Part shown: positions 17,572 to 28,970 of the stretch, piece after piece
Numbering within the stretch: the first letter of the stretch is position 1
Layout of the letters: each line of letters begins with the position of its first letter
DNA from: a bacterium
Lineage (GTDB): Bacteria; Planctomycetota; Planctomycetia; Pirellulales; UBA1268
Direction: 5' to 3'
NCBI GenBank assembly: GCA_029978085.1
Contig: JAPOJV010000021.1
Location: 1-33,218, forward strand
DNA length: 33,218 bases
Notes under the pieces: model-generated
Seen by the model: the letters and a program-made list of their open reading frames with translations, nothing else
Databases searched by the model: none
Told to the model about the DNA's origin: nothing
Position numbers and translations under genes: made by a program

Positions 17572-17623
17572 GTAGGCCTGTCACGCCGTGACAGGCTTTC
17601 CGGTCACGGCGTGACCGGGCTAC
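17572..17623. repeat. REP-like inverted hairpin pair between tsf and pyrH
   Basis: GTAG-edged GCCTGTCAC/GTGACAGGC with loop GCC (17576-17596) is joined by TTT to CCGGTCAC/GTGACCGG with loop GGC (17600-17618), ending in GCTAC. This compact pair lies inside the rpsB-tsf-pyrH-frr cluster, only 4 bp after the tsf stop and 19 bp before the pyrH ATG. Confidence 0.88.
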
Positions 17624-23193: not shown

Positions 23194-23198
23194 CGGGT

Positions 23199-23467
23199 CG
23201 ACCTCCTGTGGTGAGAGCTCGGGGCTGCCCATGCCCCGAGAGCCGGACGCTCGCTTCGGACATCCTGTCCTTCGCTCGCTCGGATGCCGCCTTCGCTTCG
23301 GCATCCTGCCTGCGCTCGGCGGCATACGCCGGCTCTCGGGGCATGGGCAGCCCCTCACGGGCGTATTTGAGAGCTGTAGGCCCGTTGCTCCGCAACGGGC
23401 TGCAAGTAGCCCGGTCACGCCGTGACCGGTGAAGCAGCCTGTCACGGCGTGACAGGCCCACGGGAAG
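23199..23467. repeat. Composite intergenic repeat locus
   Basis: This 289-bp gap between convergent genes is nearly all repeats. It opens with CGACCTCCTGTGG (23199-23211), identical to a site at 27311, and ends with CCACGGGAAGG. Inside are the 26-bp inverted repeat (separate entry) and three hairpins: GCCCGTTGC/GCAACGGGC with loop TCC (23380-23400), CCGGTCAC/GTGACCGG with loop GCC (23411-23429) and GCCTGTCAC/GTGACAGGC with loop GGC (23437-23457). The last two form an inverted pair with linker TGAAGCA. Confidence 0.85.
23221..23354. repeat. 26-bp perfect inverted repeat with structured interior
   Basis: GGGGCTGCCCATGCCCCG and onward (23221-23246) is perfectly inverted at 23329-23354. The 82-bp interior folds too: GGACA/TGTCC with loop TCC, and GGATGCCG/CGGCATCC. 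It contains no ORF of note. The layout resembles a MITE or a REP-derived element. Confidence 0.8.
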
Positions 23468-24046: not shown

Positions 24047-24197
24047 GGGGGAGCACCTCGAGGGTGGGGCGAGCCGGACGTCAGGGGGCGGGGTCGACCC
24101 CTGCGGATCGTCAGGGAAGGGTGTACCAGAATGAGCCGTCCGCGTCGGGGCCAGTTTTCAGGGCATTTTGTGGCGAAGAACCTCACGTCCGGCGTCG

Positions 24198-24226
24198 TTG
24201 ACGCCCTCCGCCCCCGAACGTAGATT
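24198..24226 (+). promoter_or_regulatory. Promoter of ppdK
   Basis: TTGACG (24198-24203) and TAGATT (24221-24226) are spaced exactly 17 bp apart, the best sigma-70-type promoter in the window together with that of rpsB. The leader would be about 58 nt. Confidence 0.6.
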
Positions 24227-24290
24227 CTGGCTGGTTTCCCGCAGAAAAGCGGTCCTTCCCGTTCCCCTTTCGAAAGGCATCGTCCCGCAC

Positions 24291-27080
<2,790 letters not shown>

Positions 27081-27082
27081 AC

Positions 27083-27124
27083 ACACGCCCGCGGGGCGCC
27101 ACTCATGGCGCTCCGCGGGCGTGT
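27083..27124 (+). terminator. Strong terminator-like hairpin after ppdK
   Basis: An 18-bp stem with one G-U pair (outer part ACACGCCCGCGG, inner GCGCC) and a 6-nt loop ACTCAT begins 2 bp after the ppdK stop. There is no T-run, so it may be a factor-assisted terminator or an mRNA 3'-end stabiliser. Confidence 0.7.
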
Positions 27125-27161
27125 CGGTAGGGTGACCGAATGGGCGTCGAGTGATACGGAA

Positions 27162-27505
27162 CCGCATTGGTTCGGCCGGCGGTGACGTGCTCGCCGCCGG
27201 CGGATTAAACCCCTTCGGGGCACCTTCGGTGTGACGTCGCGTGCTCAACTGATGTGGTCCGCCAACTCTGGCAGTCAAAATTCACCGGACGGCTGCGCGG
27301 CGTCCCCGACCGACCTCCTGTGGCCCGGTCACGCCGTGACCGGAATGCCTGTCACGGCGTGACAGGACCACGGGAGGACGGTCGGCGAGACCGGAGGAGG
27401 AGCGCAGGGATATCCGTAGCTATGTGCGTGCCACCGGGTACACGGGTGGCGGGAGGAATCCCGTAGCGACGACGGAGCGTCTTGCCGCCGGCCGAACCAA
27501 TGCGG
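27162..27505. repeat. 21-bp perfect inverted repeats enclosing a REP pair
   Basis: CCGCATTGGTTCGGCCGGCG plus one G (27162-27182) is perfectly inverted at 27485-27505. The 302-bp interior has no gene. It holds a hairpin GCCGGCGG/CCGCCGGC (27175-27201, sharing the left arm), TTCG-loop mini-hairpins (CCCCTTCGGGG near 27210) and the REP pair at 27320-27371. It could be a MITE-like insertion with a nested REP pair. Confidence 0.75.
27320..27371. repeat. REP-like inverted hairpin pair
   Basis: CCGGTCAC/GTGACCGG with loop GCC (27325-27343), linker AAT and CCTGTCAC/GTGACAGG with loop GGC (27348-27366) form a compact pair edged by GTGG and CCAC. The wider flanks CCTCCTGTGG and CCACGGGAGG are themselves inverted with one mismatch. 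Confidence 0.88.
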
Positions 27506-27557
27506 CCGGGCTTCCTGACCCACCCCACCGCGTCGCCCTGCCGGTACACTCCGCCTC

Positions 27558-28970
27558 ATGGAGCTGACCCCTGAAGCGCAGCGGCTGGCGGTGATCGTCG
27601 GGGTCGTCGTCGTGCTCTGGTTCACCGAGAGCTTGCCGCTGGCGGTGACGGCGCTGCTCGGGGCGGTGGCCTGCGTGGTGTGTGGCGTGGCGCCGGCGAA
27701 GGAGGTGTTTCGGCCGTTCGCCGATCCGCTGATCTTTCTCTTTATCGGATCGTTTTTGCTGGCGGAGGCGATCCGGCTGCATCGGCTCGACCGGCGGCTG
27801 GCATTCGCCGTGCTCGCGGTGCCCTGGGTCGGGGAGCGGCCCGTGCGAATCCTAGCGGCGGTGGCCGTCGTGTCGATGGTCATCAGCGCCTTCATTTCCA
27901 ATACGGTCACGGCGGCGATGATGCTGGCGATCGTGTCGGGGATTTTGGCGGCGGTCGAGGAGGCGGCTGGAGAGGAGCGGCGGCCGGCGTCCGGCTTCGC
28001 GACGGGGCTGTTTCTGTGCATCGCGTTCGCGGCGTCGATCGGCGGTCTGGCCACGCCGATCGGCACGCCCACGAACCTGATCGGTCTGGGATTCATTCGT
28101 GATCAGCTCGGGGTCGCCGTGTCGTTTCCCGGCTGGTGCGCCGTCAGTCTGCCCACGGTGGCGATCCTGGGAGCGATCCTCGTCGCCGTGCTCGCACGGT
28201 TGTTTCCGGCCGGCGTCGAGCGGCTCGATGGCGTGACGGCCTTCGTGCGGACGGAGCGGCGGCGGCTCGGGGCGTGGACGACCGGGCAGCGATCGACGGC
28301 ACTGGCGTTCGCGATCACCGTGGTGCTCTGGGTGGTGCCCGGGCTCGTGCTCGTGGCCGTCGGGCCCGATCATCCGGTGAGCGAATGGCTCCGGGCTCGG
28401 CTGCCCGAGGGGGTGGCGGCGCTCATCGGGGCGATTCTGCTGTTCCTGTTGCCGGGCGACCGACGGCTGGATGGCCGCAGATCGCGGGCCGTGGTCTGGA
28501 GCGAGGCGCGGATCGACTGGGACATCGTGCTGCTCTACGGCGGCGGGCTTGCGCTCGGCGAACTCTGCTTCTCGACAGGTCTGGCCGCGGCCGCGGGCCA
28601 GGGGATCACCGGCTGGATTCCGCACGGCCCCTGGGCGGGCACCGTGCTGGTGGCGGTGGCGGCCGTCGTCGCGGTGGTGACGAGCGAGTTCACGAGCAAC
28701 GTGGCCAGCGCCACGATGGTGGTGCCGATCGTGATCGCCCTCGGTCAGGCCGTGGACGCCGAGCCGGCTGCGGCGGCGCTGGCGGCTACGTTCGCGGCCA
28801 GCCTCGGCTTCATGATGCCGGTCAGCTCACCCTGCAACGCGATCGTCTACGGCTCGGGCCGGATTCCGCTACGGGCGATGATGGCGGCCGGAGCGATTCT
28901 CGACGTGATCGGCGTCGTCGTGATCGCCACGATCGTGCTCGCCGTCACGAGCCTCTGGGGACCGCCCTAA
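27558..28970 (+). CDS. DASS (SLC13-type) sodium:anion symporter
   Basis: The 470-residue membrane protein has 11-12 hydrophobic segments and the internal repeat of the divalent anion:Na+ symporter family. The two Ser-Asn-Thr/Val motifs at the substrate and sodium sites are visible: ISNTVTAAMM near residue 113 and TSEFTSNVASATMVVPI near 380. Each is followed by a Pro-rich loop (ATPIGTPTNLIGLGF, MMPVSSPCNAIVYGSGR). Substrates of the family are dicarboxylates, citrate, sulfate or phosphate; sequence does not say which. The ATG at 27558 is preceded by a TACACT (27545-27550) that may be a -10 box. The stop TAA overlaps the stop of the convergent Cys-rich gene. Confidence 0.9.
   Translation: MELTPEAQRLAVIVGVVVVLWFTESLPLAVTALLGAVACVVCGVAPAKEVFRPFADPLIFLFIGSFLLAEAIRLHRLDRRLAFAVLAVPWVGERPVRILAAVAVVSMVISAFISNTVTAAMMLAIVSGILAAVEEAAGEERRPASGFATGLFLCIAFAASIGGLATPIGTPTNLIGLGFIRDQLGVAVSFPGWCAVSLPTVAILGAILVAVLARLFPAGVERLDGVTAFVRTERRRLGAWTTGQRSTALAFAITVVLWVVPGLVLVAVGPDHPVSEWLRARLPEGVAALIGAILLFLLPGDRRLDGRRSRAVVWSEARIDWDIVLLYGGGLALGELCFSTGLAAAAGQGITGWIPHGPWAGTVLVAVAAVVAVVTSEFTSNVASATMVVPIVIALGQAVDAEPAAAALAATFAASLGFMMPVSSPCNAIVYGSGRIPLRAMMAAGAILDVIGVVVIATIVLAVTSLWGPP

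Follow-up and report, generated by a model that had tools for sequence, protein, structure and literature searches.

A gene-free 344-bp segment between ppdK and a DASS-family transporter gene in a Pirellulales genome is a nested mosaic of multi-copy repeats

The window analysed here is a 33,218-nt stretch of planctomycete DNA of the order Pirellulales (contig JAPOJV010000021.1, positions 1 to 33,218) from assembly GCA_029978085.1. We call this assembly G000 (3.31 Mb in 263 contigs) and the window contig C24. A segment of 344 bp, 27162-27505, is flanked by ppdK (24168-27080, with its stop codon at 27080) and by a gene for a DASS-family transporter of the DASS/Na-sulfate-symporter type (27558-28970, start at 27558). 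No plausible gene lies inside it, with 0 overlapping ORFs that have codon-usage support. The original prediction of a gene-free stretch bounded by perfect 21-bp inverted repeats and containing a REP pair is borne out: the arms CCGCATTGGTTCGGCCGGCGG and CCGCCGGCCGAACCAATGCGG are exact at 27162-27182 and 27485-27505 and stand 302 nt apart. A perfect 21-bp inverted repeat within 350 bp anywhere in the window has a chance expectation of about 4e-5, and the window holds no further arm match at up to three mismatches, which rules out a chance inverted repeat. Between the arms, an imperfect inverted repeat of 46 nt (27298-27343 and 27348-27393) encloses the REP pair. As DNA, the full 344 nt folds with a z of about -8 against shuffles; as RNA, 27140-27530 folds with a z of -7.6. 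The features of the spacer are as follows.

27083-27124, plus strand: separate GC-rich hairpin after the ppdK stop, with 19-bp arms that are 95% complementary and a 4-nt loop
27162-27182, no strand: left 21-bp arm, the outer end of unit A; exact match to the right arm, recurring in the genome
27162-27319, minus strand: unit A, a palindromic repeat unit (covariance-model match at 27164-27328, minus strand)
27207-27231, no strand: two TTCG mini-hairpins forming a 25-nt insert within unit A, common to a subset of copies
27320-27371, no strand: REPIN in place of the apical loop of the A/B composite; missing from the orthologous composite
27372-27505, plus strand: unit B, non-palindromic and highly conserved, with ends as in unit A and dispersed copies
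27485-27505, no strand: right 21-bp arm, the outer end of unit B; exact inverted partner of the left arm

The segment is a nested mosaic of three gene-free multi-copy repeats and not a single element. Units A and B are dissimilar, measure about 140 bp each, and abut in opposite orientations; the REPIN sits at the junction. When aligned in one orientation, A and B of the composite type both start with GATCGTGAGGAGGnCGGTCGG at the inner end and both finish with CCGCCGGCCGAACCAATGCGG at the outer end, and their middles differ. Because the two stand head to head with common outer ends, those ends read as perfect 21-bp arms; the stem beneath the apex is made by the common inner ends. Older variants of B (at C2, and at C226 of a sister species) have GAGGAGCCGGTCGGGG...CCGCCGGCGACCAATA, the A end type in other genera, and this, with the common ends, makes A and B look like two subfamilies with the same termini. 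The hairpin at 27083-27124, outside the composite, is probably the 3'-end hairpin of ppdK. It has no T run.

With the spacer as query, the assembly returned at least about 100 matches in three sets, namely A alone, B alone and the REP pair. Among the matches listed, A stands alone at about thirteen loci and B at seven (C252, C134, C155, C220, C133, C2 and C102), and the REP pair occurs at many more loci than either. Unit B has about 11 copies in G000, plus some in the sister species. C250:9270-9609 holds a full-length composite without the REP pair, and C40 and C55 hold arm-bounded or partial ones. The arm itself, for which a genome-wide search had been proposed, recurs about 10 times (C250, C40 twice, C55, C134, C155, C220 and C252). 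Gene overlap was examined for 23 copies of A and B in G000 against ORFs called by a simple codon-usage score; none of the 23 overlaps a gene, all being intergenic and in every gene orientation. Copies of A and B sit in more than 20 unrelated spacers. Copy numbers of about 13 to 63 with unrelated flanks imply mobility at some time.

One way to read such a distribution is as that of a classical MITE, a 344-bp deletion derivative of a DDE-type insertion sequence that moved whole through its 21-bp terminal inverted repeats. Length, perfect terminal repeats, lack of a gene, intergenic position and multiple copies agree with this, as does one shorter element with both arms in another species (L059). 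However, solo units (A alone or B alone), which begin and end at the inner ends, greatly outnumber the arm-bounded whole; in G000 the majority of solo A units have no 21-bp arm at all; and no target-site duplication is visible beside the window copy. Nor was an autonomous element with A/B ends met in the family, genus and order searches, which were not designed for every long-spaced pair. We regard a classical MITE as quite improbable. We also dropped the idea of a single transposon with A at one end and B at the other: solo A and solo B copies each possess both ends and are dispersed independently, and A is present in many genomes in which no B was found. The mobile-type candidate of the original prediction is repetitive, with both halves dispersed, yet it is not one arm-bounded element but an A/B heterodimer. 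We consider it probable that the segment is an inverted heterodimer of dispersed non-coding units A and B with a REPIN at its apex, the units having spread non-autonomously.

The element at 23.2 kb (23196-23456), to which the segment had been likened, is another dispersed family, of the GGGGCTGCCC...GGCAGCCCC type, followed by the same REPIN type. The likeness lies in the adjoining REPIN and in a common 13-bp CGACCTCCTGTGG. This 13-mer is found at the beginning of the 23.2-kb element (23199-23211) and again where A meets the REPIN (27311-27323), and may mark recombination between repeat families. Sequence of the 23.2-kb type adjoins many solo A units in G000. In the genus, many solo A units have AGTTG about 8 nt beyond their GGCGG end, often continuing into the start of the 23.2-kb-type repeat (L018, L019, L022, L014, L016, L020, L092, L094, L102 and L106); this AGTTG may be a target preference or an extended end.

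On the minus strand, unit A carries the conserved motifs CGCGCAG...CGAGCAYG about a stem that covaries. When 47 copies drawn from three genera are aligned, they yield a long hairpin of 20 predicted pairs, 11 of which show at least one two-sided compensatory change across these genera; the two core motifs are invariant and unpaired. A typical copy folds with a z of about -5 to -6.5. An Infernal covariance model finds A in at least 8 of 118 genomes of the order and at least 3 of 73 genera, counts that are lower bounds given Infernal's stricter filters and a limit on scoring per genome, and all matches fall in the window's family. The exact core pattern occurs 13 times in G000, 9 times in the sister species G056, 63 times in the relative G014 and 34 times in the relative G008, with 0 matches to the reversed pattern used as a control; the G000 count is a minimum for A. 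Within this one conserved frame, the inner stem-loop belongs to several unrelated classes (TTTTGAC/GTCAAAA, CGTGC/GCACG, TTTGC/GCAAA), and at one orthologous locus (L020 vs L110) the class has switched between sister species. The 25-nt TTCG insert at 27207-27231 is also found in C152 and C230 and in sister contigs C2, C94 and C168. Many A units of other genera start with CTGA-GGAGCCGGTCGG, that is, with a CnGA foot ahead of a long atypical hairpin. The foot varies: it is CTGA in many of those copies, but in several A/B copies it is GTGA or missing. No Rfam covariance model matches the window at the gathering threshold or the loci L002, L012 and L014 at E up to 5, which rules out a known RNA family for the A, B and composite copies searched.

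Unit B was seen only in G000 and the sister species in the family, genus and order searches. Scanning the genome collection with a B-core pattern gave six sister-MAG records and a single 25-nt match in Akkermansiaceae, which we judged to be chance. By itself B folds no better than shuffles as DNA (z -0.7 and -0.8) and weakly as RNA (z -0.5 to -1.7), so that a hairpin mechanism is weak for B alone. Orthologous copies in the two species group by locus and not by genome, implying that movement was not recent. At three loci the orthologs of B differ by 1.5%, 1.4% and 5.8%, compared with 33%, 11% and 15% for the remaining intergenic DNA there, and third codon positions at the B loci diverge by 16-21% between the species. 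Pooled changes are 12/412 in B versus 207/1485 in other intergenic DNA (Fisher 4e-12). At the window locus, B is 1.5% and A 4.7% divergent, against 33% for the rest of the spacer and 16.5% for third codon positions (Fisher 2e-12 for B). Unit A at C49/C31 differs by 21% between species because its inner stem-loop was exchanged.

The slow divergence of B, together with the clustering of its orthologs, argues for constraint and against gene conversion; homogenisation of B by conversion is unsupported, since orthologs cluster by locus. The comparison with its spacer suggests that B is under present constraint. On this evidence B, and perhaps A, could be a multi-copy structured small RNA or a protein-binding DNA site spread by gene conversion. 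The several-fold slower evolution of B orthologs and the invariant, unpaired CGCGCAG/CGAGCAYG core of A are in keeping with such a role, but B copies group by locus, the fold of B is not significant, and the A, B and composite loci have no Rfam match even at E up to 5. We think this explanation improbable.

In G056, the orthologous ppdK-DASS spacer (L047/L158) contains the composite with a loop in place of the REPIN. The insertion is thus old and not recently mobile, and the REP pair, which had been counted as part of the element, is a later replacement absent from the sister's copy of the locus. Arms both unique and conserved in orthologous spacers had been named as the mark of a local rather than a mobile structure; the arms are not unique, and their conservation in the sister's ppdK-DASS spacer is real. 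A local regulatory structure, such as a long terminator or insulator or an mRNA-stability hairpin kept by selection between ppdK and the transporter gene, would fit the retention of B and A against a spacer that has otherwise diverged by a third, and also the very stable fold of the segment. Against it, A/B units occupy more than 20 unrelated spacers, whatever the orientation of the neighbouring genes, and are spread over three genera; a separate hairpin (27083-27124) already follows the ppdK stop; and orthologous composites at two other loci differ in orientation between the species. At C40/C26, with the flanks as reference, the composite lies the other way round between its arms in the sister; at C55/C141 the unit adjoining the same flank is B in G000 and A in the sister, and the composite, incomplete in both copies, is probably inverted there. 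We hold a local regulatory structure to be unlikely. Constraint at the ppdK-DASS locus could be compatible with the repeat-mosaic explanation.

The solo A at C131 is missing from the sister locus L176 through a 98-bp indel that leaves a right-arm stub, GGAG plus CCGACCGGCGG; because the stub is kept, deletion of the hairpin in the sister is as likely as insertion in G000. At C19/L211, C252/L187 and C155/L081 (the last an A copy), other repeats occupy the sister spacer. None of these comparisons yielded a clean target-site duplication or a truly empty site.

The apex of the composite, 27320-27371, reads GTGG-CCCGGTCACGCCGTGACCGG-AATG-CCTGTCACGGCGTGACAGG-A-CCAC. It consists of two REP palindromes in inverted orientation with the tag GTGG at 27320-27323 and, at the opposite end, the complementary CCAC (27368-27371). 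In other copies the tags are GTAG...CYAC. GT[AG]G-tagged REPs have been described (PMC6006769), as have REP doublets that form a hairpin, termed REPINs (PMC3116915). With inverted REPs, GTGG/CCAC tags, a short spacer and many doublet copies, 27320-27371 is a canonical GTGG...CCAC REPIN (PMC3116915, PMC6006769), unlike known ones in sitting at the tip of another repeat composite. REP-pair copies in the window lie at 17580-17615, 23414-23453 and 27328-27363. The first belongs to a canonical GTAG...CTAC REPIN of the same family at 17577-17618. In three G000 composites (C24, C40 and C55) the REPIN occupies one position, between CTCCT and the GGAG-side stem, and the sister loci have the CACGATC...GATCGTG type or no REPIN in the available half. 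CACGATC...GATCGTG is the ancestral apex type. In the 1.96 Mb of G056 covered by the count, this REP type forms 13 single palindromes and 0 doublets, and doublets recur in G000. The simplest reading is that the REPIN spread after the two species had separated and took the place of the apical loop in three composites.

A RAYT-like gene at C103, whose ORF includes PSHCHIAF and YIERNPVKAGL, is flanked on both sides by a direct repeat of about 130 bp (132 bp) that contains GGTCACGCCGTGACCGGAAT and has no GTRG tag. The flanking palindrome has 20 nt in common with the REPIN, which suggests the C103 RAYT as a candidate mobiliser of the REPIN and not of A/B. Other RAYT-type genes, at L113 (G000:C99) and L301 (G003:C4), are flanked by inverted GAAAAAGGTGCCAGCCACCAAATCTGGG repeats and represent a REPtron/TIRtron distinct from A, B and the REPIN. 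At L114 (G056:C105), a RAYT-type gene is flanked by several GTAGGCCTGTCACTCCGTGACGGGC...GCCCGTTGCGGAGCAACGGGCCTAC REP doublets.

We inspected 18 Y1/RAYT loci in 16 genomes (14 PF01797 and 4 NF047646, one of the latter a G003 gene), drawn from a larger set of profile hits. None of the 18 Y1 transposase genes is flanked by A or B; other REPs or repeats flank them, and a RAYT flanked by A/B was rejected on this count. No Y1/RAYT gene was detected in G014, the genome richest in A with at least 63 copies. The A/B system combines a hairpin fold, tag-like feet (CTGA/GTGA/GGAG), inverted dimers and no target duplications, and in these features resembles repeats moved as single strands by Y1 HUH enzymes. 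Given the 18 loci and G014, a Y1-like way of working is plausible and membership of that system unproven.

We propose that A and B are hairpin-forming mobile DNA that spread non-autonomously, an enzyme provided in trans acting on their common ends in a manner like REP/REPIN and IS200/IS605-type single-strand processing. Where A and B lie head to head, the outer ends become the 21-bp arms, and the loop is held by pairing of the inner ends. In this lineage a REPIN family mobilised separately by a RAYT would have expanded and replaced the apical loop of three composites. The ppdK-DASS copy would be an old one that is now under constraint, in the simplest case as a strong hairpin, in mRNA or DNA, between the two genes. 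A bolder version, possible though doubtful, is an undescribed two-component system in which different single-stranded structures of about 140 nt share ends and one enzyme and form heterodimers that flip between their arms, with B kept as a functional nucleic-acid element; the last of these would explain the slow evolution of B.

Three aspects give these repeats wider meaning. Unrelated small repeats can nest into mosaics that imitate one long-armed transposon, so arm-based calls of new elements need a check for end-sharing units. Unit A, a family backed by covariation, has no Rfam match among the copies searched, and no cognate enzyme was found in genomes rich in it, one of them with 63 copies; the identity of its mobiliser is therefore a testable question. 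Unit B, slowly evolving in old insertions, offers a lead to a repeat with an acquired function.

Several known systems invite comparison. Class 3 TnpA-Y1 associated repeats of Planctomycetes and Acidobacteria have a CnGA foot, atypical structures and high copy number (PMC6006769). Many A units of other genera are like them in their CnGA foot, long atypical hairpin and high copy number (PMC6006769), but no such transposase gene lies beside A or B at the inspected loci, and several A/B copies have GTGA or no foot. The description of a dispersed, high-copy, intergenic hairpin repeat fits A and, except for the hairpin, B. The terminal inverted repeats of TIRtrons/TIRYT are long, unrelated to GTAG REPs, moderately abundant and found as dimers (PMC3733652). 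The A/B arms are alike as moderately abundant long inverted repeats, unrelated to GTAG REPs and arranged in dimers, whereas no tyrosine transposase gene lies between them and the GGGGWSAS motif is not established for A/B (PMC3733652). Bacterial MITEs (NEMIS/Correia, RUP, ERIC) resemble the composite in their 100-350 bp length, terminal inverted repeats, lack of a gene, intergenic position and foldability; A/B differ in having two cores with common ends, a predominance of solo halves and no target duplication shown. BIMEs, mosaics of REPs and other motifs, are similar as intergenic mosaics of inverted palindromic units plus other sequences, but the main A/B units are about 140 nt with dissimilar cores, compared with REPs of 20-40 nt. 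The A/B mosaic is an unusual member of the known REP/REPIN/MITE-type class of repeats. Its novelty is modest and lies in a pair of repeat families with common ends, their heterodimer architecture and the REPIN at the apex.
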